Source of the DNA: a virus
IMG/VR virus record: IMGVR_UViG_3300024185_000034
Coordinates: 1 to 27,767 of that record
Length of the DNA stretch: 27,767 bases
Strand: one strand, 5' to 3'
A program made the translations under genes and the position numbers. This document shows positions 8,610 through 25,241 of this stretch, in pieces. The notes beneath the pieces were generated by a model. The model was not told the origin of the DNA. It worked only from the letters and a program-made list of their open reading frames with translations, and ran no database searches. The stretch's first letter is position 1, and each line of letters begins with the position of its first letter.

Positions 8610-8755
8610 TATAATCCTGTGTTTATGTTATTATCCATTACTTGTATTATATGTCTATATACACTTTTCTCTTGTTCCCCAATTAAATCAACTCCGTTTG
8701 CGAAGAATCTAAAGTGGTCTTTCTTGTCTGTTGCTCTTAATTCAAATTTATTCAT
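8609..8755 (-). CDS. 48-residue hypothetical protein
   Basis: The peptide starts MNKFELRATDKKDHFRFFAN and continues GVDLIGEQEKSVYRHIIQVM. The composition is balanced and protein-like. It overlaps the HNH endonuclease end by eight bases (ATGAATAA, the same geometry as ATGAGTAA in the terminase block) and the next gene by TAATG. These overlaps support translation. No family recognised. Confidence 0.6.
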   Translation of the reverse strand: MNKFELRATDKKDHFRFFANGVDLIGEQEKSVYRHIIQVMDNNINTGL

Positions 8756-9266
8756 CTTTACTGGTTTTAATTATTAAACTTAATTCTCTTTGATATGCTT
8801 CAGAAGCATCTTTTTCTTTATTAAATAAACCTATACACTTACGCTTTCCGTTTATGGTTATTTGAGCTCTCCACTTGCTCCTAGCTTTATCCCAATTAAC
8901 ACCTGTATATTTACTTGTACCTTTCTTAATATCTTTAACGGTGTTAAACCTTTGAGTTACAATTCTAAGGTTGTCTAACTTGTTATTGGTTTTGTTGCTA
9001 TCAATATGGTCTACAACTATCTTACGACTACCAATCTTATGGTTTAAGAACTCAATAGCTACAAGTGTATGTATCTTTACGGTATAACCTTTACCTTCAT
9101 TAAAAAGTACAACGTGAAAATAACCGTTAGCGTCTAAGTTTTCTTTTAATATTTTTTCTTTAACAGTCTTCCCAGTAGAACTTAACCTTTTTAGGCTTTT
9201 TACTCTACCTAAACTACTGACTTGATACTTACCTTCGTAACCCTTAATATCCTTAAATATCTCCAT
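8748..9266 (-). CDS. HNH homing endonuclease (NUMOD4-HNH-AP2)
   Basis: A 172-residue homing-type endonuclease with three modules. NUMOD4 at ~1-25 (EIFKDIKGYEGKYQVSSLGR) is a DNA-binding motif of these enzymes. The HNH core is at ~65-105: H66, then VVDHIDSNKTNNKLDNLRIV with D86-H87 and Asn ligands. An AP2-like three-strand domain at ~118-160 (SKYTGVNWDKARSKWRAQIT, then IGLFNKEKDASEAYQREL) would add specificity. It overlaps the upstream gene by 14 bp in another frame, and the next gene by eight. Such genes are usually selfish insertions. Here it sits inside an operon with overlapping neighbours on both sides, so it is well integrated or captured. Confidence 0.9.
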   Translation of the reverse strand: MEIFKDIKGYEGKYQVSSLGRVKSLKRLSSTGKTVKEKILKENLDANGYFHVVLFNEGKGYTVKIHTLVAIEFLNHKIGSRKIVVDHIDSNKTNNKLDNLRIVTQRFNTVKDIKKGTSKYTGVNWDKARSKWRAQITINGKRKCIGLFNKEKDASEAYQRELSLIIKTSKDE

Positions 9267-10202: not shown

Positions 10203-10919
10203 ATGGACAACGGTTTTAATTTAAGTATTCCTAAGACGTTAAGAGGTGTAAAGCTGCATCAGTGGGTTAAATTTATGGAAATCCACCAGAAAAACAAAGA
10301 TAATGAAACTTCTGAGTTTTTAGATAAGAAAATGATTGAAATATTATGTGATGTAAGCTTAAAAGAACTAGCATTAATACCTATAGCATCATTTGACACT
10401 GTTTTAGCTCATTTATACGACGTTTTAAACACTGAAGTAGATTTAGTTAATACATTTAAAATGGTAGGCTCTGATGGCGTAGAAGTAGAGTTTGGTATTA
10501 TACCTAACCTAGATAAAATGACTTATGGAGAATGGGAAGACTTAGAAAACTATATATTTGACCAAAAGAATCTACATAGAGCAATGGCTGTACTATACAG
10601 ACCATTAGTATATCAAATAGGAGGTAAATACAGAGTACATCCTTATCAAGGTACTGAGTTCTACGCAGATTTAATGAAAGAGATGCCAGTAGATATAGCT
10701 TTAGGTGCTAGGGTTTTTTTTTATCGTTTAGTGAAAAAATTAGGGAGCTATACAATGGACTCTATACTCAAACAATATCAACAGGAGCAGAAAGAGGGCA
10801 AGGACTCTCACAAGCATTCGGAAAAAAGTGGGGAGGATATCAAGCAATATTTGCTCTTGCAGAAGGAGATGTCAGAAGAATTGACGAAGTTACAAAACTC
10901 CCACTTCATCAATGTTTAA
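10203..10919 (+). CDS. Tail assembly chaperone, zero-frame product (G-like)
   Basis: A 238-residue protein at the head of the late operon, upstream of the tape-measure gene. Residues 1-171 are a mixed, well-folded sequence (FNLSIPKTLRGVKLHQWVKF near the start; MTYGEWEDLENYIFDQKN in the middle; PVDIALGARVFFYRLVKKLG). The last ~55 residues turn polar and Lys/Glu-rich (KQYQQEQKEGKDSHKHSEKS). Siphophages encode a chaperone that coats the tape measure and is made in two forms by frameshifting. Here a T9 run at codons 171-174 offers such a shift and the alternate frame is strongly protein-like. Family identity is inferred from position and architecture, not from a signature motif. Confidence 0.7.
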   Translation: MDNGFNLSIPKTLRGVKLHQWVKFMEIHQKNKDNETSEFLDKKMIEILCDVSLKELALIPIASFDTVLAHLYDVLNTEVDLVNTFKMVGSDGVEVEFGIIPNLDKMTYGEWEDLENYIFDQKNLHRAMAVLYRPLVYQIGGKYRVHPYQGTEFYADLMKEMPVDIALGARVFFYRLVKKLGSYTMDSILKQYQQEQKEGKDSHKHSEKSGEDIKQYLLLQKEMSEELTKLQNSHFINV

Positions 10920-10987
10920 TGTACCTAGAGTTCGTTAAAGAGAAGAATGAATTAGAAAATAAGTTAATAAAACAAAGTACAAGATAA
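10203..10987 (+). CDS. Tail assembly chaperone, -1 frameshift product (GT-like)
   Basis: If ribosomes slip back one base in the T9 run (10714-10722), reading continues from about 10721 to TAA at 10985-10987, giving about 261 residues. The new extension reads SFSEKIRELYNGLYTQTIST, then FGKKWGGYQAIFALAEGDVR, then LPLHQCLMYLEFVKEKNE, and looks like a genuine folded domain. In that frame a TAG stop (10708-10710) lies just before the T run, so entry is possible only at the run. Its stop overlaps the next gene start as TAATG, the junction used between many real gene pairs here, whereas the zero-frame stop leaves a 67-bp gap. A homopolymer sequencing error is the main alternative. Confidence 0.65.
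10713..10722 (+). other. Candidate -1 frameshift slippery site
   Basis: G followed by nine T. In the zero frame it is GTT-TTT-TTT-T, so both P- and A-site tRNA-Phe can re-pair after a one-base backward slip (T-TTT-TTT type heptamer). A -1 frame TAG lies three bases upstream. I did not identify a convincing downstream pseudoknot by eye. Confidence 0.6.
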
Positions 10988-12090
10988 TGAAGCACGTTTA
11001 CGACATATTAGATGTATTAAGAGATGAGTTAAGAAGCCATCCAGCTGTAAATACGGTCTCCTACGGAGACATCACTGACTTAGATTTAGATAAAACGACA
11101 ATGTTCCCATTGTCGCATCTACTAATCGATAGTGCATCTTACGGAGAAAGAACTGTAACATTCAGTATAAAAATATTATGTGCTGATATAGTAGACTATA
11201 ATCAATCAGAAAGCCAATTTGATGAGTTTTACGGCAATGATAACTTACACGATGTTATGAATACACAGTTTCAGGTAATTAACTCACTAATAATGAAACT
11301 TAGAAGAGGAGATTTGTTTAAGTCTAATTATCAAGTAACAAGCACACCTTCGGCAGAGCCATTTAAAGAAAGCTATGGTAATGTGTTAGCAGGATGGACT
11401 ACTCAGGTAGATATAGAGATACCTAACGCAATAGCTATATGTATCGAGTCAGGAAGCAGTAGTAATAATAGCAGTAGTAACAATAATGGTAGCAGCAACA
11501 ATAATGGAAGTAGTGGTAGTAGTGGTTCAGTACCTGTAGTTACTCGACCTACAACTAGGTTTGCTCAATTAGACTCGCAATTTAGCTATCAAGTAATTGC
11601 TACAAACAATCCTACAAGCTACAGCGTGTTTAGTCCACCAGAAGGGTTGGTAATTGATGAGTCTACAGGTTTAATCTCAGGTGTAACTACTGGAGATGCT
11701 AGACTAGATTCTATGTCGGTTAAAGCTGCAAACCAATATGGCGAATCCGAATCTGTTCTTATAGGTATTAGAATGATTGAAGAAGACCCTACTGTATTGT
11801 TGCCACCAGATGAATTAACAGCGACAGACCAAGGCTTTGATGTTAGTACTGGGTTTGAATTTAGATTAGGATGGAACTACCCTCCTTATACTGGAGATAT
11901 AACTATAATAGAGATATACAGAGATGGTGTTTTAAAAAGGACTGAAACTAATACGGTTGGAGGAAGTCAGCAAACTGCTACGGTTAGAAAGAATCTTAGC
12001 AATGTTCCAACGTACTCATATACAATTAGATTTGGAGATAGTGAAGGTAACTTCTCTGAAATGTCTGAACCTTTATTAGTAGATTTATAA
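10987..12090 (+). CDS. Tail terminator-like protein with Ig-like and FN3-like domains
   Basis: A 367-residue protein. Residues 1-154 resemble a phage tail completion/terminator domain (YDILDVLRDELRSHPAVNTV; TMFPLSHLLIDSASYGERTV; QFQVINSLIMKLRRGDLF). A Ser/Asn/Gly linker covers ~156-181 (SSSNNSSSNNNGSSNNNGSS). A putative Ig module at ~183-262 has the He_PIG pattern (FSPPEGLVIDESTGLISGVT), and an FN3-like domain covers ~273-367 (WNYPPYTGDITIIEIYRDGV). Tail terminators cap the tail tube near the neck; displayed Ig domains often bind host surface carbohydrate. The start overlaps the -1 frame chaperone stop. The first domain is a contextual guess; the linker and Ig-like parts are directly visible. 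Confidence 0.65.
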   Translation: MKHVYDILDVLRDELRSHPAVNTVSYGDITDLDLDKTTMFPLSHLLIDSASYGERTVTFSIKILCADIVDYNQSESQFDEFYGNDNLHDVMNTQFQVINSLIMKLRRGDLFKSNYQVTSTPSAEPFKESYGNVLAGWTTQVDIEIPNAIAICIESGSSSNNSSSNNNGSSNNNGSSGSSGSVPVVTRPTTRFAQLDSQFSYQVIATNNPTSYSVFSPPEGLVIDESTGLISGVTTGDARLDSMSVKAANQYGESESVLIGIRMIEEDPTVLLPPDELTATDQGFDVSTGFEFRLGWNYPPYTGDITIIEIYRDGVLKRTETNTVGGSQQTATVRKNLSNVPTYSYTIRFGDSEGNFSEMSEPLLVDL

Positions 12091-12093
12091 TAG

Positions 12094-12630
12094 ATGAATA
12101 AGAATAATCTAAAAAAAGCACTAGAAGAACTAGTTGTAGAGTATAAAAAGAAGCTTTCAGCACAAGCTAAGATAGATAAGACTCACGCAACAGGTAGATT
12201 TGCTAAGTCTTTTAAAAGTAAGGTTACCGAAGATGGTTTTGATATAACATCGGACTTAAAGTACTCAGGAACTGTTGATGGAGGTTCTAGATCTGCAAGA
12301 ACTAAAGATGATGGTATTGCTAAAAAGGATAGAATTAGAGAATGGGCAAGAATGAAAGGTTTGAGACCTTACAGAAAAACTAAAGCAGGAGGAACAAAGT
12401 TTGTTAAAATAACTGATGCATCTATGAAGTCAATGATCTATATGATATCAAAGACTATTAGAGAAAAAGGAACAATAAAGAGGTTTGGATACAATAAAGG
12501 TAGTGGTATCTTTGACACAGTATATCAATCTATAAGTAAAAAAGTAGGTGTAGAAATAGGATCTGCTTACAGTAAGGATATACAAGAAGATTTAAGAAAA
12601 ATGATAGATAAATTTAATACAAATAGATAA
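12094..12630 (+). CDS. HK97 gp10-like tail completion/neck protein
   Basis: A 178-residue, basic protein. Its layout resembles HK97-gp10-type proteins, which join head and tail: an N-terminal helix (LKKALEELVVEYKKKLSAQA), then ATGRFAKSFKSKVTEDGFDI and SDLKYSGTVDGGSRSA with a small-residue turn typical of the family, then a long basic region and a final helix (SKDIQEDLRKMIDKFNTN). It lies 3 bp after the preceding tail gene and its stop joins the next gene by TAATATG. Length is at the upper end for this family. Confidence is moderate because the family is defined by fold more than by motif. Confidence 0.6.
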   Translation: MNKNNLKKALEELVVEYKKKLSAQAKIDKTHATGRFAKSFKSKVTEDGFDITSDLKYSGTVDGGSRSARTKDDGIAKKDRIREWARMKGLRPYRKTKAGGTKFVKITDASMKSMIYMISKTIREKGTIKRFGYNKGSGIFDTVYQSISKKVGVEIGSAYSKDIQEDLRKMIDKFNTNR

Positions 12631-12631
12631 T

Positions 12632-13837
12632 ATGGGATTAATATTAACAAGAAGTCCATTTCACATAGGTAGAGGTAGTTTAGACGCTAATGCTTCGTTA
12701 ACCGTTCAAGTAGGTTACGTTGAGGAAGGTTATTTTCAGATAGACGAAACTTACACTTTAAATTTTAGGAATAATTATTATCTAGACATATCTCCTTTAG
12801 TTAGAAGCCATATAGGAACTTCGTATAATTACAGTACTACTCTTGGTAGATATACTTCAGATACCAATAGAGTTGATTCTTGTTATGTATCTGTAACGTT
12901 ATCTGGAAACAAAAATGATGTAGCTCAAGATGATGTAACTACCAGATATTCGGCAACAGAAGGTTATTTGTACTCAGAAGAATCACGGAACACGGATATA
13001 GTAAGCATATTACGTAACAACAACTTTTACGCAGGTAGCTCAAAGATAATATACAAATTAGATGATTCTTACGAGCTTAGGATTCCTGTAATGAACGTAG
13101 GTAAAGACCTTCTTGATGAACCTGCTCAAGATAATATAACTGCTAATTGGATTAGTAAAGGAAAAGTTGTTCATACTGTTGATTTAAACTATTGGGTAGA
13201 AGATGGAGGATGGACTTCAGTTCAGTCTTTAAGTACTTTTAATATTAATCCAGACGAGTCTTTTAAAGGTAGGATTAACGATGAGGATGGTGTATTAGAA
13301 TCATCTCAATGCTTAGAGGATTTCTTTAGTGAATTTAAACTGCTAGAAATAGACAAAATTACAATAAAATCAAGTCTTAATCAAAACCCTACAGTAATAC
13401 AAGTCAAAACCATAGAAGAATGTAAATATAACCCTTATCGAATAACTTTTAAGAATAGATACGGCGCTATGGAAGACTTATGGTTCTTTAAAAAGTCTGT
13501 AAAATCTATAAGCGTTAAGTCTGATGAATTTAGAGCTAATCAAGTTGAACAAAGAGTTAGTGGTCTAGGATTGATAAGGTCTTCTCAAGAATATAATAAA
13601 AACGGTTCAACATCTATAACACTTAATTCTGGTTTTGTAGATGAAGCTCTTAACGAGTCTTTTAAGCAACTTATGTTATCTGAAGAGGTGGAATTATATG
13701 ATTTTAATAATGATGTGTTAAGTGCTGTTAAAATTAAGGATTCAGAGCTTAAATTAAAGACGTCAACTAACGATAAATTAATAAACTACACAATAGAGGT
13801 AGAAATGAGTAATAACATAATAGACAACATAGTTTAA
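12632..13837 (+). CDS. Tail structural protein, possibly distal tail/baseplate
   Basis: A 401-residue protein, predominantly beta (ASLTVQVGYVEEGYFQIDET; TYTLNFRNNYYLDISPLV) with a conserved-looking segment RITFKNRYGAMEDLWFFKKS around residues 275-295. Similar aromatic segments (NxYG-W/M-E-x-hydrophobic-F-x-K) occur in tail proteins of Bacteroidetes phages from general knowledge. The C-terminal third (SITLNSGFVDEALNESFKQL; LMLSEEVELYDFNNDVLS) resembles domains that contact the tape-measure end or baseplate. It sits between the neck protein and the giant FN3-bearing tail protein, with overlaps or one-base gaps on both sides. Function is inferred from context. Confidence 0.55.
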   Translation: MGLILTRSPFHIGRGSLDANASLTVQVGYVEEGYFQIDETYTLNFRNNYYLDISPLVRSHIGTSYNYSTTLGRYTSDTNRVDSCYVSVTLSGNKNDVAQDDVTTRYSATEGYLYSEESRNTDIVSILRNNNFYAGSSKIIYKLDDSYELRIPVMNVGKDLLDEPAQDNITANWISKGKVVHTVDLNYWVEDGGWTSVQSLSTFNINPDESFKGRINDEDGVLESSQCLEDFFSEFKLLEIDKITIKSSLNQNPTVIQVKTIEECKYNPYRITFKNRYGAMEDLWFFKKSVKSISVKSDEFRANQVEQRVSGLGLIRSSQEYNKNGSTSITLNSGFVDEALNESFKQLMLSEEVELYDFNNDVLSAVKIKDSELKLKTSTNDKLINYTIEVEMSNNIIDNIV

Positions 13838-16728
13838 TGAGATTGCAGCCACAATTATATATAGACACAAGTGGTAATCCGTTAGGAGAACCTACATTTG
13901 AGAGAGTTGAGTTCTTTGACTTTGAGTCAATAGAAATAACATCTACCGTACAAGACTTTAGGGATATAAGCAAAGTATTTACAGATTACTCTAAGACATT
14001 TAATGTACCTGCATCTAGTACTAATAATAAGATATTTAAGCATTACTATAATTCAAGTATAGTTAATGGTTTTGATGCTAGAATAAAGCAAAAAGCAGAA
14101 ATACATATAAACGGTATATTTTGGAAGACTGGTTATGTTAGATTAACTAAATCATTGATATCTAACGGTAAAGCAAAATCTTATAGTATTACTTTCTTTG
14201 GTAGTTTAACCAATTTAAGTAATGTAATAGGTAATGCAGAGTTATCTGACTTATCTAGCTTAAACAAATACAATCACGAATATGAACAATTAAATGTTTA
14301 CGATGGTTTTACTCAAGGATTACAGTTAGACGGAGATACTATGAATAATGGGAATGATAGAGATATTATATACCCTGCTATATCTGCTAATGATAAGTGG
14401 TATTATGAATCTGGTACTGTTTCAGACCCTATTCCATATAATCAAGGGTATAGCGTTAATCTACACGATGAAGATGAAGACGGTACTTATGGAATTAACT
14501 GGTTATCATTAAAACCAGCTATAAAAATTAGACACATAATAGATGCTATACAAGAAAAATATAGTAGTATAAAGTTCTCTAACGAGTTCTTTGGAAGTGA
14601 TGAGATTGAAGACTTATATATGCTGTTACATAACAATAAAGGTGTATTAGCTCCTGCTTCAAATAGTATGGATGATGTTACTGTTACTTACAGAGTAGGC
14701 ACAAACAATAGTAATTCTGATTTTGTTTTGTCAGCCAGTAATACAGAGGCTAGACCTCCTAGAACTTATTGGGAAGTACCTAGTGATGGTGCTGACCAAA
14801 GAAGAGTGTTTCAATATCATTTAATATTAGATATTAGTAATACAGTTAAGTCTGGTGGTGGAAGTAATCCTAAATATACCGTGTCTGTATTGTCAGATGG
14901 TATTGAGATAGATAGGTTTACAAACTTAGAAGGAGATAAACAAGTAACATCTGTATTATGTACTGAAAACGTGAAAGAATGGGATAACCTAAGCGTTAGC
15001 ATAAGCACTAAGGAAAGTGAGTTGTCTAGTTTTGAATTGAAGTTAGACCTTAAATTTCTTAGATATAAACTACCTTATGACGGTTTTGATAATACTTGTG
15101 ATGTGAGTAATTTTACCTCAACAGGAGGTGTTCCTGTAACAGAAACTTCAACTTACAGTACCGCTGTATCTGGAACTCAGTCAATGGTTAAGACAATAGA
15201 GATAACTAATAATATGCCTAAAATGAAGATATTAGACTTCCTTCAGGGCGTGTTTAAAATGTTCAATCTTACAGCATTACCTAACGAGGAAGGTGTGTTA
15301 GAGGTAAAAACATTAAATAAATTCTATTCTGAAGGTAATACTATAGATATAACAAACAAGGTTAATACAGAAGAAATAAGTGTTAACAGAATGGATTTGT
15401 TTAAGAATATAGAGTTTAAATTTGCAGACCCTAAAACATTTGGTATAATAAACAACAATGAAGTTTCTGATACAGATTATGGAAACTTAGAATACCAAGC
15501 AACAGCAGACGGTACTGATTCTAGTTTAGTTTTTGACGGTAAAGATTATAAGATTAAATTACCTTTTGAAAAGCTATATTATGAGAGATTGTTTGATGAG
15601 ACTAGCGTATCTTCAAGAACTGAGTTTGGACACGGATGGTTAGCTGATAAAGACCAAAACGAGATACTTACAAAACCTATATTATTTTACAATATTGTTC
15701 AGCCAGTAAATACTGCGCTAGAAAACGATTCAGGAGGTCTTACAGGTTTAATAGGCTTTAGAGGTGTAAATAACATAACTCAATACAACAGACCTAGCAA
15801 TACAAATGCAAAAGAGCGTTATATATCGAACGTATGGACTACTGTACAAGGAACTAAGAGTATAAACTTTAATACAGAGTTTGATGAGTTTACTTTTACT
15901 GAAGTTAATCTAGGTTTGTTTAGAAAGTACTATCAGAACTATATATCAAGTATATTTAATAAAGGTACTAGGGTGTTTGATTTAGAAATGAAAGCTGATT
16001 TAGCATTCTTATTAAAGTACAATATAAACGATACATTAACTATAAAAGGAGAAGAGTTTTTAATAAATAACATAAGAACAAACCTTAATACTGGTTTAAC
16101 TAAGTTAGAATTAGTACTTAAATTCTTTATTGAAGATGAAGATAGTTTAGTAGGAGATACATTAACAACACCTACAGGTCTTTCTCAGTTTAGTTCTACG
16201 GAAAACATAATAAGATTTAACTGGAACGCAAACCCAATAGGAGAATTAGTTGCAGGATATAAGATATATGTTGATGATTTTACCACTCCTCACGCAACAA
16301 CCGTAGGGGTAGGTACTAACTATTCATTGTCTGGATTAACTATAAATACATCTTACAATATTAAGATTTCTGCTTACAACTCGCAAGGTCTTGAAAGTAG
16401 TTTAACATCAATAGTAGCTATGAACACAGGTGTTGCTGATACATTACCTCCTACAGCACCTACTAATCTTAGAGTTATAGAGCAAACAACTCTATATGTT
16501 AAGGTTGAATGGGATGCAAGTACTGATAACGTAGGTGTTACTGGTTATGATGTTTATATAGATAATGGTACTACGGTAACAACTCAAACATCAACGGCAA
16601 CAACGCACACTATTACAGGATTAGCAACAGGTTCTAAATACCCTGTGTTTGTTAGAGCAAAAGACGCAGCGAATAATTATTCAGCACAATCTAATACAAT
16701 TTCAGTTAAATTAACAGACCCAACATAA
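13837..16728 (+). CDS. Large tail tip/baseplate protein with two FN3 domains
   Basis: A 963-residue protein, the largest in the window. The N-terminal ~130 residues contain RDISKVFTDYSKTFNVPASS, a segment I associate with Bacteroidetes phage tail/baseplate proteins, followed by a beta-rich region. The centre (~210-780) has no recognised motif but is long and mixed. Two fibronectin type III domains close the protein at ~778-868 (FNWNANPIGELVAGYKIYVD) and ~872-960 (VEWDASTDNVGVTGYDVYID), each with the usual Trp and Tyr core. FN3 modules on phage tails commonly aid binding to host surfaces. It overlaps the previous gene (TAATG) and precedes the tape measure, so a role at the tail tip is likely, though order is not proof. 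Confidence 0.65.
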   Translation: MRLQPQLYIDTSGNPLGEPTFERVEFFDFESIEITSTVQDFRDISKVFTDYSKTFNVPASSTNNKIFKHYYNSSIVNGFDARIKQKAEIHINGIFWKTGYVRLTKSLISNGKAKSYSITFFGSLTNLSNVIGNAELSDLSSLNKYNHEYEQLNVYDGFTQGLQLDGDTMNNGNDRDIIYPAISANDKWYYESGTVSDPIPYNQGYSVNLHDEDEDGTYGINWLSLKPAIKIRHIIDAIQEKYSSIKFSNEFFGSDEIEDLYMLLHNNKGVLAPASNSMDDVTVTYRVGTNNSNSDFVLSASNTEARPPRTYWEVPSDGADQRRVFQYHLILDISNTVKSGGGSNPKYTVSVLSDGIEIDRFTNLEGDKQVTSVLCTENVKEWDNLSVSISTKESELSSFELKLDLKFLRYKLPYDGFDNTCDVSNFTSTGGVPVTETSTYSTAVSGTQSMVKTIEITNNMPKMKILDFLQGVFKMFNLTALPNEEGVLEVKTLNKFYSEGNTIDITNKVNTEEISVNRMDLFKNIEFKFADPKTFGIINNNEVSDTDYGNLEYQATADGTDSSLVFDGKDYKIKLPFEKLYYERLFDETSVSSRTEFGHGWLADKDQNEILTKPILFYNIVQPVNTALENDSGGLTGLIGFRGVNNITQYNRPSNTNAKERYISNVWTTVQGTKSINFNTEFDEFTFTEVNLGLFRKYYQNYISSIFNKGTRVFDLEMKADLAFLLKYNINDTLTIKGEEFLINNIRTNLNTGLTKLELVLKFFIEDEDSLVGDTLTTPTGLSQFSSTENIIRFNWNANPIGELVAGYKIYVDDFTTPHATTVGVGTNYSLSGLTINTSYNIKISAYNSQGLESSLTSIVAMNTGVADTLPPTAPTNLRVIEQTTLYVKVEWDASTDNVGVTGYDVYIDNGTTVTTQTSTATTHTITGLATGSKYPVFVRAKDAANNYSAQSNTISVKLTDPT

Positions 16729-16729
16729 T

Positions 16730-16879
16730 ATGATAATAAAACAAGCATTAGAATTATTAGCAGGAGATGACTGGCTAATAGAAGACAAGGATATACAAAT
16801 AGCAAAAGGGTTATACGAATTACCTACAACATTTGCTGAATTAAAAATGAATAATAAACGTAAAAAACTAGCGAAATAA
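16730..16879 (+). CDS. 49-residue protein just upstream of tape measure
   Basis: The peptide starts MIIKQALELLAGDDWLIEDK and ends MNNKRKKLAK: an acidic N-terminal half and a basic C-terminus. It starts one base after the tail protein stop (TAATATG) and its stop shares a base with the tape-measure start (TAATG), so it is tightly coupled to tape-measure translation. Tail chaperones are normally found in this slot, but this gene is far too short. It may be a small accessory or a remnant. No family recognised. Confidence 0.6.
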   Translation: MIIKQALELLAGDDWLIEDKDIQIAKGLYELPTTFAELKMNNKRKKLAK

Positions 16880-19206
16880 TGGCTGATAGTAACGAAGAAA
16901 TATTATTAAAGTTAAAGATACAAACTGACAAAGCTAACGCTGCGTTAAAGAAGACTGAAGTAGAAATAAAAAAGACTATACAATCTTTTAGAGGTTTAGA
17001 AAAGGGTAGTTTAGATTATCAAGCTGCACAAGCAAAGTTGGCTAAACAACAAGCTACTTTAGCTCAACAGACCGTAAAATATAACAATGCATTAAAGATT
17101 CAAACATCTGCTCAATCTAGTGCTGTTAAACAGACGAAGCAATTAAGGAGTGCTTCTGGTGGAGCAACTGCTTCTGTAATGGAGATGGGTAGGGTTATAT
17201 CGGATGCTCCTTATGGTATTAGAGGTATGGCGAACAACCTTACTCAGTTGGTTTCTCAGATGGGTTTTACTATAAAGTCTGCTGGTAGCCTTAAACTAGC
17301 GCTAAAAGAGATGTGGGCAGCTATGATGGGGCCCCTAGGTATAGTTTTAGCGATAACAACGGTTATATCTGCTTTAGACTTCTTTGCTGGAGGTACTAAA
17401 AAAGCAAAACAAGAATCAAATGCGTTAAGTAAAACTTTTGGCGAAAACTCTACTAAACTTATGGTCTTAAAGAGTGCGTTAGATGACTCTAATATATCTC
17501 TAGAAGATAAAAACGAGTTAGTTAAAAAAGCTAACGAAGAGTTTGAGGATTTAAATATAAAAATAGACGAGAATGGTAGGCTAACAGATGAGTCTGCTAA
17601 AGCTATAGATAGATTATCTCTATCTTTTATAAAGAATGCTAAAGCAAAAGCTATCGCTGGTTTAATACAAGAGGAGATGGCTGCACAGGCTAAACTGTCA
17701 GTTGAGAACATAGGTACTCAAATAGGTTATTTAGAAGGTTTTAGCTTAGCTGCTATGGCTGCATTTTCTGGTGGTCAAAAAGCGTTTAGTGCTTTCTTAA
17801 AGAAAGATAGCGATGACAGAGCAGAAGTTATGGACGAGTCTAGAGAAAGAATTGAAAGATATGTATCAATGCTTAAAAAGAATGGAGGAGAGTTAGCTAA
17901 GGAACTTTTTGGAGACAGTAAAGGCACTGGTAAAAATAAAGATAAGAAACTATCTCCATTCAAAACACCTAAAGAATTAGAGATAGATGTAAAGAATGCA
18001 GATAATGCAATTATACAATACGAAAGAAAGATAGAAGAATCTAGGTTAAAAAAAGAGCTTAATGATAAATTATCTGAAGCTACATCTGAAGAAGAGAAAA
18101 GAAAGATAAGAGAAGAGTATCAGTTAAAGAGACTACAAAGTCAATTAAATGCTGAAAAGAAGATGCTAGAACTAAAGCTATCTACAGAGAAGGCAGTGGT
18201 TAACACTAAGAGAAATAATCATATAGATGACTTAAAAAGAGCTACAGAACTTTATTTACTGAAGTTAAAGCACGAAGAAAAATTAGGTAATATTACATCT
18301 AAAGAGAGGGATGAATTAAGCCAAATGGCTAAGTCTCAACTACAAATAGCTACTAATCAAGCCAATACCGAAGCAGATAGTGCTATAACAGAGATTAAAG
18401 ATAAGTATCAAACTTTATTTGGCTTCTTTGAGCAATTAGGTATAGCAAGAAAAGATGCTTTAACTTCTGGATTTGGAGCTAAGAAAGATGATGATAATGA
18501 AGAGAAAGGTCCTATAGAGAAAATGAAAGAGAAGTTAGAAGGACTCGCACTTACTACGTCTAGGTATATGGAGGTAGCGTCAGGATTAACTAGCTTCTTA
18601 GATGGGGAGTTTCAGAGACAGATGACTATAGAGCAAAATAAAACTAACGCTATAAATAATGAGCTTAGAGAAAGATTAAATAATGAAAACCTATCTGCTG
18701 GAGAAAGAAAGAATATCCAATTAAAGATAGCTAGAAATGATGAGGAATTAAGAAAGAAGCAAGAGAAGATACAAAAGAAAAGATTTAAGATGCAAAAAGC
18801 TGCTAATATAGTAATGGCTCTAGCTGACACGTACAGAAACGCAGTAACTGCTTACGGTTCTCAATTAATAGTAGGAGACCCTACATCTCCAGCAAGAGGT
18901 GCTATAGCTGCTAAATTCGCTATAGCTTCTGGTTTGATAAATGTAGCTATGATTGCTAGACAAAAGTTTCAGTCTAGCGCTGGAGCAGCTCCATCTGCTG
19001 GTGCATTAGGTGGTGGTGGTTCTGGTAGTGGTACTGGAGATAGAAGTTTTAACTTTAATTTAGCAGGAGCTTCTAGAGAAAATCAACTAGCACAAACGTT
19101 GCAAGGTAGATTTGACCAACCATTACAAGCATACGTTGTTAGTAGAGATATAACTAATCAACAACAGTTAGATATGGATATACAAAACAATGCTAGTTTC
19201 GGTTAA
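16879..19206 (+). CDS. Tape-measure protein
   Basis: A 775-residue protein that sets tail length and passes through the tail tube during injection. It has a Lys/Gln-rich helical N-terminus (residues 1-90), the segment MGRVISDAPYGIRGMANNLT common in tape measures of these phages, and a hydrophobic stretch at ~147-171 (GPLGIVLAITTVISALDFFA) that could enter a membrane. Long coiled-coil regions follow around 370-520 and 590-640 (LRERLNNENLSAGERKNIQL), with a small-residue, Gly-rich region near the end (GALGGGGSGSGTG). A tape measure this size suggests a tail of roughly 100 nm by the usual scaling. It lies after tail-tip genes and before the head block. Confidence 0.88.
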   Translation: MADSNEEILLKLKIQTDKANAALKKTEVEIKKTIQSFRGLEKGSLDYQAAQAKLAKQQATLAQQTVKYNNALKIQTSAQSSAVKQTKQLRSASGGATASVMEMGRVISDAPYGIRGMANNLTQLVSQMGFTIKSAGSLKLALKEMWAAMMGPLGIVLAITTVISALDFFAGGTKKAKQESNALSKTFGENSTKLMVLKSALDDSNISLEDKNELVKKANEEFEDLNIKIDENGRLTDESAKAIDRLSLSFIKNAKAKAIAGLIQEEMAAQAKLSVENIGTQIGYLEGFSLAAMAAFSGGQKAFSAFLKKDSDDRAEVMDESRERIERYVSMLKKNGGELAKELFGDSKGTGKNKDKKLSPFKTPKELEIDVKNADNAIIQYERKIEESRLKKELNDKLSEATSEEEKRKIREEYQLKRLQSQLNAEKKMLELKLSTEKAVVNTKRNNHIDDLKRATELYLLKLKHEEKLGNITSKERDELSQMAKSQLQIATNQANTEADSAITEIKDKYQTLFGFFEQLGIARKDALTSGFGAKKDDDNEEKGPIEKMKEKLEGLALTTSRYMEVASGLTSFLDGEFQRQMTIEQNKTNAINNELRERLNNENLSAGERKNIQLKIARNDEELRKKQEKIQKKRFKMQKAANIVMALADTYRNAVTAYGSQLIVGDPTSPARGAIAAKFAIASGLINVAMIARQKFQSSAGAAPSAGALGGGGSGSGTGDRSFNFNLAGASRENQLAQTLQGRFDQPLQAYVVSRDITNQQQLDMDIQNNASFG

Positions 19207-19254: not shown

Positions 19255-20178
19255 ATGGATACAATAGAATTAATTATAGACGAACAACTAGGAGAAGAAG
19301 GTATAAATGCTATCTCTTTAGTAGAGTTCCCAGCTATAGAAGAAAACTTTGTTGCACTTAGTAAAGACCAACATAAAGTAGAGTTCAAAACTGTAGATAA
19401 AGAGAAAAGAATTATTGTAGGATTAGCATTAGTTCCAGATAAGCTCATATATCGTCGTAGAGGCGATTACGAGTATAATATAACATTCTCTAAGGAAACT
19501 GTGAGAAAAGCGTCTGAGCTATACTTAAAACGTCTTAAAAACAATAATACAACATTAGAACATCAAGAATTTACTTCTGGTGTATCTGTAATAGAATCTT
19601 GGATAGTAGAAGACCCTAAACAAGATAAAACTGCTTTATATAACTTAAATGCTAAAGAAGGAGATTGGGCAGTAGTTATGAAGATAGATAATGATGCTGT
19701 ATGGCAAGATGTAAAGAATGGTAAATATTTAGGTTTAAGTATTGAAGGTATTTTTAGTGATAAGAAGCAAGAAGATATGAGTGCTATGGAAGATGTAAAT
19801 ATAGAAGATATATCTGAAGAAGAGGCTTACGAAATGATACAAGACATTATAGAGCTTATGGATGAAGAGAAGTTAGCTTCTTATAGTGATTACCCACAAG
19901 CTGCTAAAAACAATGCTAAAAGAGCTATAGCTTATAAGAAAAAGAATGGTTCTAGTTGTGGTACTTCTGTAGGTTGGACTAGAGCTAGTCAATTAGCTAG
20001 TGGAGCTGCATTATCTCGTTCTACTATTGCAAGAATGGCATCATTTAAAAGACATCAACAAAACAAAGACGTACCTTACTCTGAAGGATGTGGAGGTATT
20101 ATGTGGGATGCTTGGGGTGGTTCTGCTGGTGTTAACTGGGCAATATCTAAACTTAAAAAGATAGATAATGAGAGCTAA
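19255..20178 (+). CDS. XkdF-type prohead serine protease with C-terminal extension
   Basis: A 307-residue protein. Residues ~50-170 match the phage head-maturation protease of the XkdF group: RIIVGLALVPDKLIYRRRGD, TTLEHQ with H103, and YLGLSIEGIF with S162, the probable catalytic His and Ser. It would cut scaffold and capsid N-termini during head assembly. A short acidic region follows, then a distinct C-terminal domain at ~208-305 with YSDYPQAAKNNAKRAIAYKK, CGTSVGWTRASQLASG and WDAWGGSAGVNWAISKL, Trp-rich with Cys235 and Cys279. I recall similar segments in other phage head proteins but cannot name a function. The late-region motif lies just upstream. Confidence 0.8.
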   Translation: MDTIELIIDEQLGEEGINAISLVEFPAIEENFVALSKDQHKVEFKTVDKEKRIIVGLALVPDKLIYRRRGDYEYNITFSKETVRKASELYLKRLKNNNTTLEHQEFTSGVSVIESWIVEDPKQDKTALYNLNAKEGDWAVVMKIDNDAVWQDVKNGKYLGLSIEGIFSDKKQEDMSAMEDVNIEDISEEEAYEMIQDIIELMDEEKLASYSDYPQAAKNNAKRAIAYKKKNGSSCGTSVGWTRASQLASGAALSRSTIARMASFKRHQQNKDVPYSEGCGGIMWDAWGGSAGVNWAISKLKKIDNES

Positions 20179-20398
20179 GTATTGTAAATCAAAGAATACA
20201 TATACTATAAAAGACTGTAAGAATTGTAAGTGTCAATACTATTGGAAACAAGGTATTGGCTCTATACATAATAACGACCACGTATCTAATATTGTTAACG
20301 AAGATACTGAAAGGGTAGAAACACATACTGCTTCTGCAAAGACTTCTCAAGAAGGTAGTGTTACGAATATAGATACTACAAGAATTATTAATAATTAA
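20168..20398 (+). CDS. 76-residue Cys-rich hypothetical protein
   Basis: The N-terminus has C6, C17, C20 and C22 (KDCKNCKCQYYWKQGIGSIH), suggesting a small zinc-binding knuckle. The rest is polar, Thr/Asn-rich and probably disordered. It overlaps the protease gene by 11 bp. Its position among head genes suggests a minor head protein, but no family is recognised. Confidence 0.5.
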   Translation: MRAKYCKSKNTYTIKDCKNCKCQYYWKQGIGSIHNNDHVSNIVNEDTERVETHTASAKTSQEGSVTNIDTTRIINN

Positions 20399-20409
20399 AA
20401 CTAAATTTT

Positions 20410-20853
20410 ATGTTTAAGAACACTAGCTACAATGTTAGACCAGACAGGCATACGTCTGCCGAGATAGCATTGTTAAAGCCAGAAGAAAGTGTTATCGTTT
20501 ACGACACAGATGAAAAAGTAAACAAGTTCTGGAATGGAACTTCTTGGGTAAGTGTAAATGGAGAAAGTGGTCAGAACCTAAGAATAGGTAAATTAGTTAG
20601 TGGTAATACATTAAACGGAGAAAAGATAGATGAGTTTGCAATATGGGATAGCAATCAAGGTGGTAATATATCTAGCATATACAATAGTGGCTCTACATTT
20701 GATTTATCTACATTAACAACAGAACCTAAACATTGGTGGAGAATGGGAGACGGAGATTCATATCCTTACTTGCAAGACAATGGTACTGAGGCTAGTTGCA
20801 TCTTTCAAATGTACAATATGACAAGTGCGAACATAGTAACTGACACTCCGTAA
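20410..20853 (+). CDS. LamG-like decoration or adhesin protein
   Basis: A 147-residue beta-rich protein. The first half (AEIALLKPEESVIVYDTDEK, then FWNGTSWVSV) resembles a short domain common at the start of phage fibre/decoration proteins. The second half (KIDEFAIWDSNQGGNISSIY, then WWRMGDGDSYPYL) resembles ends of LamG/concanavalin-like lectin modules found in marine phages. It would be exposed on the virion and may bind carbohydrate. It sits between protease and scaffold genes, which favours a head decoration role over a tail role. Short length suggests a single domain. Confidence 0.55.
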   Translation: MFKNTSYNVRPDRHTSAEIALLKPEESVIVYDTDEKVNKFWNGTSWVSVNGESGQNLRIGKLVSGNTLNGEKIDEFAIWDSNQGGNISSIYNSGSTFDLSTLTTEPKHWWRMGDGDSYPYLQDNGTEASCIFQMYNMTSANIVTDTP

Positions 20854-20899
20854 CTATTTGGTTATTAGTGTTATATGCTTGAATATAAAACAGTTAAAA

Positions 20900-20919
20900 T
20901 AAAAATAGTTATATTAATA
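20900..20919 (+). promoter_or_regulatory. Late-region motif, copy 4
   Basis: TAAAAATAGTTATATTAATA, 18 bp before the ATG of the scaffold gene at 20938. The first thirteen bases match the other copies; the end is more divergent. It would drive the scaffold-capsid unit. Confidence 0.5.
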
Positions 20920-20937
20920 TATTAAAATCAATCAATT

Positions 20938-21471
20938 ATGAATAGTAAAGAAATTCTTACAAGCATCAAAGAATTAGTAGGTTTATCTAAGGAAGAAGCT
21001 ACTAAAGAAGTTGAGGCTACAGAAGAGGTTATCTTATCTACAGAAGTAATTGCTGAAGAAGTTATCGAAGAAAAAGTTGAAGAAGTAGAGTTATCTACAG
21101 AAGAGACTAAAGAAGAGGTAGTTGAAGAAGCAGTTGAATTAGCTGAAGAAAAAGAAGAGCCTAAAAAAGAAGCTGCACCTGCAGTTGAAGCACCAGTTCA
21201 AATGAACTTTGCAACACAAGAAGAGTTATCTCAAGTTAAACAAGAGTTGTTATCTATGATTAAAGCAATGATGGAAGACAAATCTGATTATGCTGAGGCT
21301 GACGTACCTGCTAAATTATCTGCTGAAGAAAAAGAAGCTGTAGAGCTTTCTGAAGAAGTGGAAGAAGAGGTAGTACATTCTCCTGAAAGTGTAACTGAGA
21401 CTAGACAGAAAAATTTTAACAATAAAGGAATGACTGCTGCCGAACGAGTGTGGTCAATGATTAATAATTAA
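20938..21471 (+). CDS. Acidic scaffold-like protein
   Basis: A 177-residue, extremely Glu-rich protein directly before the major capsid gene, the usual place and character for a scaffolding protein that guides capsid assembly and is then removed. The middle is low-complexity (EEVIEEKVEEVELSTEETKE) with several related ELS/LS-E words (VELSTEE, VELAEE, VELSEE). A predicted coiled coil at ~95-120 (TQEELSQVKQELLSMIKAMM) could mediate dimerisation. The C-terminus (NNKGMTAAERVWSMINN) is conserved-looking and could contact the capsid protein. A late-region motif lies 18 bp upstream. The Glu-rich part resembles disordered scaffolds and gives little homology signal. Confidence 0.7.
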   Translation: MNSKEILTSIKELVGLSKEEATKEVEATEEVILSTEVIAEEVIEEKVEEVELSTEETKEEVVEEAVELAEEKEEPKKEAAPAVEAPVQMNFATQEELSQVKQELLSMIKAMMEDKSDYAEADVPAKLSAEEKEAVELSEEVEEEVVHSPESVTETRQKNFNNKGMTAAERVWSMINN

Positions 21472-21499
21472 TTAAATTAAATTTAAAATTCGCTAAATT

Positions 21500-22450
21500 A
21501 TGGCAACAAGTACAAGTATTACTACTACCTATGCTGGAGAAAGTGCTGGGAAATACATCTCGGCAGCTTTATTAGCTGGTAACACAATCGCTAACGGAGG
21601 TTTAACTATTAGACCAAACGTTAAATTTAAAGAAGTTGTAAAAAGATTAGAATTAGACGGTATCGTAAAAGACGGTACTTGTGATTTCGCTGACACTTCT
21701 ACATTAACACTTACTGAAAGAATCCTTCAACCAGAAGAATTTCAAGTAAACTTAGAATTATGTAAGAAAGATTTCCGTTCTGACTGGGATGCTATCTCAA
21801 TGGGATATTCTGCTTTCGATAACTTACCTTCTTCTTTCCAAGATTATTTAATTGGACACGTTGCTGCTAAAGTAGCACAGAAACAAGAAATCAATGTATG
21901 GAGAGGAGCTAACGCTACTGCTGGAGAGTATGATGGTTTTTCTACTTTATTAGCTGCTGATGCTGATTTACCTGCTTCACAAGAAGTTGCTGGTACTTCT
22001 GTAGATGCTTCTAACGTTGTAGATGAATTAGGAAAAGTTGTAGATGCTATTCCTGCTGCTTTATACGGAAGAGATGACTTAATGATTTATGTTGCTCAAA
22101 ACGTATTTAGAGCTTACAAGAGAGCTTTAGGTGGTTTCCAATCTGGAGGTCAAGGAGCTGCTGGTTTCCAAGATAAAGGAAACAATCAGAATATCAATAT
22201 CGAGAGCTTTGATGGTGTAAAAATCTTTATGGCTAACGGACTTGCTTCTGATACTATGATTGCTACTACTAAAGATAACTTACATTTCGGTACAGGTTTA
22301 ATGTCTGACCAAAACGAAGTTAAGATTTTAGATATGGCTGACTTAGATGGTTCTCAAAACGTAAGAATCATAATGAGGTTTACTGCTGGTGTTCAGTATG
22401 GAATTGTTGAAGATATCGTAACTTACGGAATCTCTAACTCTGCTAACTAA
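21500..22450 (+). CDS. Major capsid protein
   Basis: A 316-residue protein of HK97-fold character. Segments include PNVKFKEVVKRLELDGIVKD, then LQPEEFQVNLELCKKDFRSD, FQDYLIGHVAAKVAQKQEIN (a helical spine) and DDLMIYVAQNVFRAYKRALG, with a beta-rich C-terminus ending in GVQYGIVEDIVTYGI. This is the pattern of Bacteroidetes phage capsids. The gene lies 28 bp after the scaffold and is followed by a strong terminator. Isoleucine is nearly always ATT or ATC, whereas ATA dominates most other genes here, consistent with selection for high expression. Identity by context and sequence character is good; no maturation cleavage site is identified. Confidence 0.85.
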   Translation: MATSTSITTTYAGESAGKYISAALLAGNTIANGGLTIRPNVKFKEVVKRLELDGIVKDGTCDFADTSTLTLTERILQPEEFQVNLELCKKDFRSDWDAISMGYSAFDNLPSSFQDYLIGHVAAKVAQKQEINVWRGANATAGEYDGFSTLLAADADLPASQEVAGTSVDASNVVDELGKVVDAIPAALYGRDDLMIYVAQNVFRAYKRALGGFQSGGQGAAGFQDKGNNQNINIESFDGVKIFMANGLASDTMIATTKDNLHFGTGLMSDQNEVKILDMADLDGSQNVRIIMRFTAGVQYGIVEDIVTYGISNSAN

Positions 22451-22468
22451 GATTAGTATAAATAAACT

Positions 22469-22499
22469 AAAAGGGTAGGTTTAACTATCTGCCCTTTTT
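22469..22499 (+). terminator. Intrinsic terminator after the capsid gene
   Basis: AAAAGGGTAG (22469-22478) pairs with the following CTGCCCTTTT segment (22489-22498), with one G-T pair, closing a short AT-rich loop and followed by T5. It ends the transcript after the capsid gene but allows some read-through, since the next gene has no late-region motif. Confidence 0.75.
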
Positions 22500-22523
22500 A
22501 TTAACTTTTAAAAATATAATATA

Positions 22524-23048
22524 ATGAGTTGTGATATTTCAAGAGGACGTTTAGAGCCTTGTAAAGATTCAGTTGGTGGATTAAACGCTGTTTATTTCAT
22601 TAACAAAGGAGGAATAACTGCTGGTTATGACGTTACTGATACTGACGTTATTGATGACCTAGGTTCTCCTACTGCTTATAAATTTGATATTAAAGGTGGT
22701 TCTACATATACAGAAAACATTACCTCTTCAAGAGAGAATGGAACTACTACCTTTGAGCAAGTTTTAGAGCTTCAATTGACAAAATTAACTAAAGAAGACC
22801 ACAAGACGGTTAAGTTATTAGCTTACGGTAGTCCTCACATTTTAATCGAAGACAATAACGGAAACGTATTTGTTGCAGGTTTAGAACACGGATTAGATGT
22901 ATCTGGTGGTACTATCGTTTCTGGAGCTGCTATGGGAGATATGAGCGGATATACTTTAACATTCTCAGGAATGGAGAAGGCTCCTGCTAACTTCATAAAA
23001 GATGGAGACTTAGCTGCTGCTGGTGTATCAGTTACTGTTGGTGTTTAA
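22524..23048 (+). CDS. Probable major tail tube (or second major virion) protein
   Basis: A 174-residue protein of beta character: FDIKGGSTYTENITSSRENG, TTFEQVLELQLTKLTKED, SPHILIEDNNGNVFVAGLEH and AMGDMSGYTLTFSGMEKAPA. The closing pattern, TLTFSGMEKAPANF, resembles tail tube proteins. Codon choice follows the capsid gene, with few ATA, so it is probably made in large amounts, fitting a tube or decoration protein. Terminators stand on both sides. Tail tube genes usually lie next to the tape measure, so a capsid accessory remains an alternative. The start is ATG at 22524 following an A-rich leader. Confidence 0.6.
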   Translation: MSCDISRGRLEPCKDSVGGLNAVYFINKGGITAGYDVTDTDVIDDLGSPTAYKFDIKGGSTYTENITSSRENGTTTFEQVLELQLTKLTKEDHKTVKLLAYGSPHILIEDNNGNVFVAGLEHGLDVSGGTIVSGAAMGDMSGYTLTFSGMEKAPANFIKDGDLAAAGVSVTVGV

Positions 23049-23069
23049 TAACCAATAAATCAATTATTT

Positions 23070-23099
23070 AAAAGCCTTGCATTATGTGAGGCTTTTTTT
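23070..23099 (+). terminator. Intrinsic terminator after the tube-like gene
   Basis: AAAAGCCT (23070-23077) and AGGCTTTT (23089-23096) form an 8-bp stem with an 11-nt loop, followed by a T tract to 23099. A textbook hairpin, just before late-region motif copy 5. Confidence 0.85.
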
Positions 23100-23117
23100 A
23101 TTATAAAACAAAATAAT

Positions 23118-23136
23118 TAAAACTAGTTATCTTAGT
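23118..23136 (+). promoter_or_regulatory. Late-region motif, copy 5
   Basis: TAAAACTAGTTATCTTAGT directly abuts the ATG at 23137, exactly as copy 1 abuts 245 (19 nt from motif start to ATG). It follows the strong terminator and would restart transcription for the portal block. Confidence 0.6.
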
Positions 23137-23493
23137 ATGATAATATTACAACCAATAACAACATCTCAAACTATATCTATAATGCCTAGAGTAGACTTAT
23201 CTACTGTAATAACATTATCTATTAAATTAAGAAGAGATGGAGATGCTAAGTCAGATACAATAACTGACGCAGTAGTAGGTAGTGATAATGATTTCACAAC
23301 ATTAGAATTCTCTAGTTCTATATTTTCTGAAGGCTCTACTTATTTTATGGAGATAGAAGCTGACGACAATCTAGCATATAGAGATAAAATATTCTGTACT
23401 AGTCAAGATGATTATACTGTTAAACATATAGTATCACAAGACAGATATATACAACCTACAGGAGAGATAAATGATAACACATATATTATATAA
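23137..23493 (+). CDS. 118-residue hypothetical protein upstream of portal
   Basis: A beta-rich protein: RVDLSTVITLSIKLRRDGDA, FTTLEFSSSIFSEGSTYFME and DDYTVKHIVSQDRYIQPTGE. The size and strand pattern suggest a small immunoglobulin-like or connector domain. The start lies against the late-region motif, and the stop shares a base with the portal start (TAATG), so it is coupled to portal synthesis. A head decoration, spike or connector role is possible; no family recognised. Confidence 0.6.
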   Translation: MIILQPITTSQTISIMPRVDLSTVITLSIKLRRDGDAKSDTITDAVVGSDNDFTTLEFSSSIFSEGSTYFMEIEADDNLAYRDKIFCTSQDDYTVKHIVSQDRYIQPTGEINDNTYII

Positions 23494-25241
23494 TGAAAGA
23501 TAATAAGAAGCAACAAAATGTAAGGATACTTAATTTATCATCTTACGAAGCACCAGAAGTAAAAGAAGTTCACAATAGAGATTGGGTTTCTTGGGGTGCT
23601 GATAATAATTATTTTGGTAGACTTATAGAATTAGATACTTCTAGCCCAACTAATGCTAGATGTAATAACGGTATAGCTGATATGGTATTTGGTAGAGGTA
23701 TAGAATCTACTAACTCTGAGTTATTACCAGAACATTATGTAAGAATGAAAAAACTATTAAGACCTAGAGAAATTAAAAAGGTAGTAATAGATAGAAAGAA
23801 ATTAGGACAAGGTGCAATTAAACTAACCTACAATAGAAATAAAACTAAGATATTAAAAGTATCTCACTTTCCTATGGAGACTTTAAGAGCTGAGAAAGCT
23901 AACTCTAAAGGAATTATACAAGCATACTACTACCATCCTAATTGGGCAGATGCTAAACCTAGTGATAAGCCTAAAAGAATACCTTGTTTCAAACACGGAG
24001 GTAAATCACAAAGAGAAGAGATATATGTAATTAAGCCTTATAGAAGTGGTTTCTACTATTACTCTACTCCTGATTACCAAGCTTGTTTACAATATGCTGA
24101 TTTAGAATGTGAAGTATCTAACTACCATATATCTAATATACAAAATGGATTAGCTCCTAGTTTATTTATTAACTTTAACAATGGTATTCCTAACGAAGAA
24201 ACACAAGGTGCTATTGAAAGAAAGATTAATGATAAGTTTTCTGGTAGCTCTAATGCAGGTAGAACTATTATAGCATTTAACGAGTCTAAAGAAACTCAAG
24301 CAGAAATAGAAGCTATACACTTACCTGATGCTCACGCACAGTATCAATTCTTATCTGATGAAGCTAGAGAAAAGATTATGTTAGGACACGGTATTGTATC
24401 TCCTATCTTATTAGGTATTAAAGACAATACAGGATTTGGTAACAATGCAGAAGAATTAAGAACAGCATCTGTATTAATGGACAATGTAATTATTAGACCA
24501 TTCCAAGATGAGATTAAATACTGTTTAGAAGATATATTAGACTTTAACGGTATTACACAAGATTTATACTTTGTAACATTACAACCAATAGAGTTTACAG
24601 AATTAGATAACATATCTACTAAGATTAGAAAAGAAGAAGAAACTGGAGAGAAATTATCTTCACAAGTTAATGAGGACTTTTCTGAAGAACAAGGAGATGA
24701 TATGCTAGAGCAGTTAGAAGGCTTAGGAGAGGTTTTAAGCGATGATTGGGAAGTTGTGCATAGCGAAATATATTCAGAGGATATAAGTGACGTTAGAATG
24801 GCTACAATTAAGTCTAGCAACAAATCATCTAAAGAGGATAGTGATATCTATAAAATTAGATATGCTTATATGCCAGTAAGAAGTAATCCTAATAGTAGAG
24901 ACTTCTGTAAAAAGATGGAAACATTTACTTCTAGAAATATAGTATTTAGAAAAGAAGATATTAATATGATGTCTTTTAGAGGTGTAAATAAAGAGTTAGG
25001 TCATAACAAACAGAACTATAGCTTACTTAAATTTAAAGGAGGTAAAAACTGTCATCACTACTGGGAGTTAAGAGTATTTAAATTAAAAGGAGATAAAAGA
25101 GTAGACCCTAATTCAGCTTATGAGAAAGGTTTAAAACAACCTAACAATCCAGATGAAATGGGAGAAAGAATGATTGACAGAGATGATAACGGTGCTTACA
25201 GAAGTACATTAAGTAAAATTAAAAACATATTAGGACTATGA
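23493..25241 (+). CDS. Portal protein with C-terminal Cys/His domain
   Basis: A 582-residue protein forming the ring through which DNA enters and leaves the head. Portal character shows in SPTNARCNNGIADMVFGRG, DRKKLGQGAIKLTYNRNKTK, SNIQNGLAPSLFINFNNGIP and GIVSPILLGIKDNTGFGNNA, followed by ELRTASVLMDNVIIRPFQDE. From about residue 450 a second domain appears (YKIRYAYMPVRSNPNSRDFC; DINMMSFRGVNKELGHNKQN; GGKNCHHYWELRVFKLK) with Cys and His that could bind metal, resembling minor-head or protease-related modules. The gene is followed at once by a connector gene (ATGA overlap). Its distance from terL is atypical. Confidence 0.85.
   Translation: MKDNKKQQNVRILNLSSYEAPEVKEVHNRDWVSWGADNNYFGRLIELDTSSPTNARCNNGIADMVFGRGIESTNSELLPEHYVRMKKLLRPREIKKVVIDRKKLGQGAIKLTYNRNKTKILKVSHFPMETLRAEKANSKGIIQAYYYHPNWADAKPSDKPKRIPCFKHGGKSQREEIYVIKPYRSGFYYYSTPDYQACLQYADLECEVSNYHISNIQNGLAPSLFINFNNGIPNEETQGAIERKINDKFSGSSNAGRTIIAFNESKETQAEIEAIHLPDAHAQYQFLSDEAREKIMLGHGIVSPILLGIKDNTGFGNNAEELRTASVLMDNVIIRPFQDEIKYCLEDILDFNGITQDLYFVTLQPIEFTELDNISTKIRKEEETGEKLSSQVNEDFSEEQGDDMLEQLEGLGEVLSDDWEVVHSEIYSEDISDVRMATIKSSNKSSKEDSDIYKIRYAYMPVRSNPNSRDFCKKMETFTSRNIVFRKEDINMMSFRGVNKELGHNKQNYSLLKFKGGKNCHHYWELRVFKLKGDKRVDPNSAYEKGLKQPNNPDEMGERMIDRDDNGAYRSTLSKIKNILGL

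Follow-up and report, generated by a model that had tools for sequence, protein, structure and literature searches.

A conserved run of nine T's at the junction of two overlapping frames points to a G/GT-like two-product gene in a phage tail module

Does a run of nine T's in an uncultured phage genome join two overlapping reading frames into one long protein, and, if it does, would the frame be moved by the ribosome or by RNA polymerase? The question is raised by a stretch of 27,767 nt (positions 1 to 27,767 of IMG/VR record IMGVR_UViG_3300024185_000034; hereafter the window), for which a preliminary description proposed that tandem ribosomal slippage at the run gives a tail chaperone in two forms. 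The lambda proteins gpG and gpGT are tail assembly chaperones, reportedly from the work of Xu, Hendrix and Duda. Frameshifting that yields G and GT is well known in phages (PMC5009743, PMC10885494). Our analysis indicates that a conserved two-product recoding gene, G/GT-like and with a -1 transition at the T9 run, is very probably present in the tail module of this phage.

Two overlapping frames meet at a T9 run

No other homopolymer in the window reaches the length of the T9 run at 10714–10722 (plus strand); the next longest are two A8 and one T8. In the zero frame, the codons across it are GCT AGG GTT TTT TTT TAT, the run itself being read as GTT TTT TTT TAT, and the heptamer T_TTT_TTT lies in register at 10715–10721. 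Both the run and a TAG at 10709–10711 (plus strand), which closes the -1 frame just 5' of it, are present as first described. The zero-frame, G-like gene (10203–10919, plus strand) encodes 238 aa and matches PHROG 32199 (E = 9.5e-12). The -1-frame extension (10721–10984, plus strand), a T-like domain of 88 codons, is followed by the stop TAA at 10985–10987, which overlaps the ATG of the next gene at 10987; the reported extension of about 88 codons ending in TAATG is therefore present in the sequence. Residues 1–173 of the zero-frame gene are common to both products, and its last 65 codons belong to the zero frame only. The shifted product is 261 aa (173 + 88) and the unshifted product 238 aa, which agrees with the two candidates of 238 and about 261 residues proposed earlier. 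The zero frame was also said to end 67 bp before the -1 stop; it does end first, but the distance is 68 nt. The junction peptide of the long form would be ..A-R-V-F-F-L-S-F.., identical under the polymerase and the ribosome route.

The stretch 10722–10919 (plus strand) is read in both frames. When synonymous codons were resampled with the zero-frame protein fixed, only 0.015% of trials left the -1 frame without a stop across the 65 codons of the overlap. The arrangement of a T9 run with overlapping frames is far beyond chance.

The junction is retained in related phages

Related loci were searched for with the extension or the upstream protein, and never with the T run. In IMG/VR, the extension by itself retrieved 58 loci, and a profile of the extension retrieved at least 589 relatives. 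Further searches were made with the extension of phage P12024L, with a mixed profile, and with two probes (a consensus-like G probe and the L006 extension, whose C-terminus is inexact); the probes only fetched loci, and the loci's own DNA was then read. In this way 232 related loci were read, corresponding to 204 distinct sites and to 58 protein clusters at 60% identity or 26 at 50%, with the lowest pairwise identity at about 18%. An early weak match without the junction (L065) was left out of the counts, and L256 was rejected as a relative.

In each of the 232 loci a zero-frame ORF leads into a T9 or T10 run at the junction, and the extension lies in the -1 frame. The run is T9 in 193 of the 204 distinct sites and T10 in 11; neither T7 nor T8 was found at any of them, and T_TTT_TTT is in register in all 204. 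No switch to another heptamer was seen in the 58 clusters. Comparison of the extension with related phages, which had been suggested as a check, revealed that both the extension and the junction are kept in every distinct site, and the minimum of nine T's is deeply conserved. A true run of T8 or T10 in this genome, or homologues with the two halves fused in one frame without a run, had been named as findings that would speak against the frameshift; both were sought among the relatives read, and neither was found, no one-frame fusion being present among them. Residues F33, K36, W37, Y40, and L69 of the extension are invariant among the relatives. The zero-frame tail varies in length: it mostly runs for 57–69 codons from the junction, but for 19–29 in P12024-like sites and in a few others. 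Of the two, the extension is thus the part that varies less.

Among annotated phages, tblastn with the extension matched only Nonlabens phages, and with the zero-frame protein it matched no annotated phage record. P12024L, a Nonlabens/Persicivirga phage, carries CTTTTTTTTTATCATTTAGG between gp40 and gp41, and gp38/gp39 of P12024S have the T9 site and the same -1 relation. The presence of T9 in these two complete genomes, as well as in the distinct sites, bears out the homopolymer length, for which confirmation by accurate reads had been advised. The cultured relatives are confined to phages of a marine flavobacterium, which makes Bacteroidota the likely hosts of this phage family. Bacterial genomes hardly ever contain the extension: among 395 Bacteroidota genomes searched there was one real match, in a MAG contig, and a second, weak match turned out to be spurious on reading.

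A structure-level relative of G was also observed in Flavobacterium phage 6H (L234, Duneviridae; 10352–10927, minus strand). Its 3' end reads TGT TTT TTC TAT AGC ACC CGA TAA, and an extension-like ORF in the -1 frame comes next and overlaps it; in that frame a TAG stands right after the heptamer.

Both frames are constrained and the extension lacks a start of its own

We compared third-position divergence in 721 pairs of relatives with 60–92% identity. In the zero frame it fell from 0.44 ahead of the run to 0.17 within the overlap, and in the -1 frame it was 0.19 in the overlap and 0.30 past the zero-frame stop; divergence in the overlap was depressed at all codon positions relative to the single-frame stretches. 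This drop indicates that both frames are constrained, the -1 frame strongly.

Runs of T typically attract single-base indels in sequencing or assembly, and an error of this kind would produce an apparent frame break in the present record. The T9 run is, however, repeated in 204 distinct sites and in the finished genomes of two isolates, and the selection on both frames is independent evidence against an error, the probability of which we regard as negligible. Because the run is conserved in this many sites, a sequencing error in this record is ruled out.

Homopolymers are also prone to slippage during replication, and genomes might alternate between T9, giving the short protein, and T10, giving the fused one. 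This type of phase variation is very improbable, because the 11 distinct T10 sites arose by substitution and still have the extension out of frame, and a fused state was found in none of the 232 loci.

In GenBank, the extension of the two cultured phages is entered as a gene of its own (gp41 of P12024L and gp39 of P12024S), which would imply a separate protein made from an internal start. In the -1 frame, however, no ATG occurs between the upstream stop and extension codon 25 in 200 of the 204 sites, and in 138 of the 204 there is no ATG, GTG, or TTG in the same stretch. The conserved residues of the extension begin at residue 1–3, and L1 and F3 precede the annotated start of gp41. An internal start would, moreover, leave the invariant T9 unexplained. 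The internal-start reading is thus already largely refuted, and we consider it highly unlikely. In P12024L (L066, JQ823123; 14552–15246) and P12024S (L160, JQ823122; 1052–1746), GenBank appears to split one frameshifted gene in two, with the second gene starting too late and, in the case of gp41, leaving out the conserved residues at the head of the extension.

A programmed -1 frame transition, the core of the preliminary description, is therefore upheld by the same junction in 204 of 204 sites, by selection on both frames, and by an extension without a start codon. The G/GT-like transition with two products is well supported by these sequence comparisons.

Ribosome or RNA polymerase

The shift itself was attributed at first to tandem ribosomal slippage. 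The heptamer in register fits this assignment, but the conserved run of nine or more T's fits polymerase slippage equally well, and no ribosomal stimulator was found. Tandem slippage on the ribosome requires just T_TTT_TTN. A change from T to C at base 10721, the Z position of the heptamer, would turn TTT into TTC in the zero frame and TTA into CTA in the -1 frame, both without effect on the protein; in the common contexts where T-to-C is synonymous in both frames, this base was never C (0/177). Conserved Phe columns outside the junction have TTC in 5–45% of cases, and parsimony assigned no change to base 10721, as compared with 5–28 changes at the other conserved Phe columns. Two loci have exchanged a T at one end of the run for a T at the other: L161 lost the 5' T (GGT) and gained a 3' T (TTG), giving GGT TTT TTT TTG, and L112 lost the 3' T (ATC) and gained a 5' T (TTT), giving TTT TTT TTT ATC, each with exactly T9. 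The chance of both compensations was estimated from site frequencies, with phylogeny ignored, at about 6e-4. A scan of IMG/VR for sites with T8 ahead of the most frequent 3' context gave six matches, none of them in this gene. Because base 10721 is never C, because L161 and L112 compensate, and because T7 and T8 do not occur, the sequences suggest that the length of the homopolymer (at least nine), and not just the heptamer T_TTT_TTT, is what is kept.

A downstream RNA structure, another of the checks put forward earlier, was not found: in 41 representatives, the energy of pseudoknot-free folds was not below that of shuffled sequences (mean z 0.03), and alifold gave no consensus structure downstream of the run. 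Shine-Dalgarno-like tetramers were not enriched (0.14 vs 0.14 in the background). A Shine-Dalgarno element or a downstream structure is usual for -1 ribosomal frameshift sites, but not strictly required.

In a purely ribosomal reading, the P- and A-site tRNA-Phe would slip together at U_UUU_UUU, and protein constraint and slipperiness would hold the Z base as well as the two T's beyond the heptamer. UUU may slip more than UUC for the ribosome or tRNA-Phe, and hydrophobic residues needed in both frames could alone hold T at 10714 and 10722. This reading draws on the in-register heptamer of every site, on the precedent of lambda and other phages, which shift ribosomally for G/GT (PMC5009743), and on the direction of the shift. 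A shift that always goes one way is taken to point to the ribosome and not to transcription, whereas homologues with either direction mark the transcriptional type (PMC3711429). The direction is -1 in all 232 loci, and homologues of either direction, which transcriptional slippage does not strictly require, were not found, although the overlap alone would hinder a switch to the other direction. The ribosomal reading accounts less readily for the lack of T7, T8, and any other heptamer in 58 clusters, for the compensatory changes in L161 and L112, and for the absence of a Shine-Dalgarno or structural stimulator. From the sequence pattern, we regard it as a serious possibility, though one held tentatively.

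Alternatively, RNA polymerase would add one U to U9, and the resulting U10 in the mRNA would put the extension in frame. Programmed transcriptional slippage goes with a selected homopolymer of 8–9 or more A/T, and a run of nine or more T's stands at 204 of 204 sites. In bacterial genomes, signs of selection against slippage in transcription are common for runs of nine, and the long product of mxiE in Shigella flexneri is made through one extra U at a U run (PMC1088944). We give this route about an even chance; judged from the run, a slip during transcription, of the kind known from Shigella mxiE, is no less likely than one on the ribosome. Some other mechanism, or both routes in equal measure, is quite unlikely. 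In a partial search of the literature, no report of transcriptional slippage for phage tail chaperones or for this site was found.

Position in the tail module and predicted structures

The gene after the extension (10987–12090, plus strand) has an N-terminus that resembles P12024L gp42 (PHROG 30964), together with an Ig-like domain. It is followed by a gene for an HK97-gp10-like or tail-completion-like protein (12094–12630, plus strand; weak Pfam match to HK97-gp10_like, E = 0.23), with weak similarity to P12024L gp43, which in turn matches PHROG 5 (tail completion/Neck1). Next are a syntenic relative of P12024L gp45 (12632–13837, plus strand; PHROG 35281, E = 2.2e-15) and a large tail protein related to P12024L gp46 (13837–16728, plus strand; PHROG 38559, E = 8.9e-76, and tail PHROGs). 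The likely tape measure protein of 775 aa (16879–19206, plus strand) is 42% identical over 72 aa at its C-terminus (E = 3e-11) to P12024L gp50, which matches tape-measure PHROG 9483 (E = 5.6e-12). Since these downstream genes match P12024L gp42–gp46 and a tape measure protein, the two-product gene heads a series of tail genes. Lambda-type G/GT genes stand between those for the major tail and tape measure proteins and adjoin the latter; here four genes separate the two-product gene from the likely tape-measure gene, so that this adjacency was not found.

Several other features were observed in the window. The C-termini of the tape measure proteins (18991–19206 in the window, and gp50 of L066) share the motif V..D.TNQQQ.D.D, and the rest has diverged. 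The terminase gene is at 955–2166, and genes for head maturation protease-like, capsid-like, and portal proteins follow the tape measure gene at 19255–25750; either this module order (terminase early, head genes after the tape measure gene) is unusual or the record is circularly permuted. A tandem repeat at 2661–2944 encodes MNLEQKINK three times in a small ORF, and an HNH endonuclease-like gene (8748–9266, minus strand) lies between early genes.

Searches of G and the extension against Pfam, PHROG, and PDB sequences gave no named family and no chaperone match, and hhalign comparison with lambda G and T as single sequences was negative. The AlphaFold2 model of G had a mean pLDDT of 88, with long helices after residue 163, and that of the extension was all helical (pLDDT 79.7). 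Foldseek gave a weak match (E = 0.29, probability 0.75) to A0A8S5V8Z8, annotated as a tail assembly chaperone, and structure searches matched P12024S gp38 and many unnamed proteins of uncultured phages. A FERM-domain fold for G had chance-level matches only in a PDB fold search, and the POU-domain likeness of the extension (VIA-align Z 2.3) was not meaningful; both were rejected. The BFVD entries A0A516L611, A0A516L5A8, A0A6J5SVK3, and A0A6J5N0W0, which are uncultured-phage proteins of 240–267 aa, match the models of both G and the extension. These model matches suggest that one-frame fusions of G and extension may exist in distant phages, and such fusions would support, not refute, the fused product.

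The proposed identity as a G/GT-like tail chaperone is thus sustained by the architecture and the tail-gene setting, but not by a family link or by a place next to the tape-measure gene. A real two-product gene with another role, such as a neck or connector factor, would suit its distance from the tape measure, the lack of a family link to chaperones, and its place in P12024L directly 3' of the terminase gene. This role is nevertheless unlikely, since the architecture is that of G/GT, the gene sits in a run of tail genes, and the weak Foldseek match is to an annotated chaperone. From the layout and the neighbouring tail genes, we infer a tail chaperone that would work like G/GT without being a member of the lambda family.

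Proposed mechanism and comparison with known systems

We propose that this tailed phage, whose host probably belongs to Bacteroidota, would mostly make the 238-aa protein by reading straight through T9. In a minority of events the frame would move by -1 at the run, and the 88-aa helical domain would then take the place of the last 65 zero-frame residues, giving the 261-aa protein. The pair might serve, like gpG and gpGT of lambda, as a tail-assembly chaperone in two forms at a fixed ratio. The production of both proteins, their ratio, and the chaperone role are what we infer from this arrangement. The recoding gene, so far unannotated, is common to at least several hundred environmental phages (at least 589 relatives), and the annotation of P12024L and P12024S divides one gene into two. 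There is a little under an even chance that this large and diverse phage group makes both tail-chaperone forms by polymerase slippage on nine or more T's and not ribosomally. A transcriptional slip, if that is what occurs, would provide the control of phage tail length with a second, independent means of setting the G:GT ratio, one dependent on the host RNA polymerase.

The nearest known systems are gp40/gp41 of P12024L and gp38/gp39 of P12024S, which are alike in the gene pair, the T9 site, and the -1 relation. They differ in being only about 23–30% identical, in a zero-frame tail of just about 28 codons past the slip, and in being annotated as two hypothetical proteins, each on its own, with no record of the frameshift. 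Shigella mxiE and other 9A/9T slippage genes (PMC1088944, PMC5009743) consist of two ORFs that overlap and are brought into one frame by an additional U in a run of U's, and in mxiE, as proposed here, slippage gives the longer product; mxiE is a bacterial regulator, whereas the present gene would act in the structural assembly of a phage. With lambda gpG/gpGT it shares the layout of a short and a long product that have a common N-terminus and arise by a -1 shift near the end of the first ORF, although no sequence or profile similarity to lambda G/T was detected in single-sequence comparison. The slip site of lambda is G GGA AAG, whereas that of the present gene is a T9 homopolymer, past which the zero frame runs for 65 codons and four genes intervene before the tape-measure gene.
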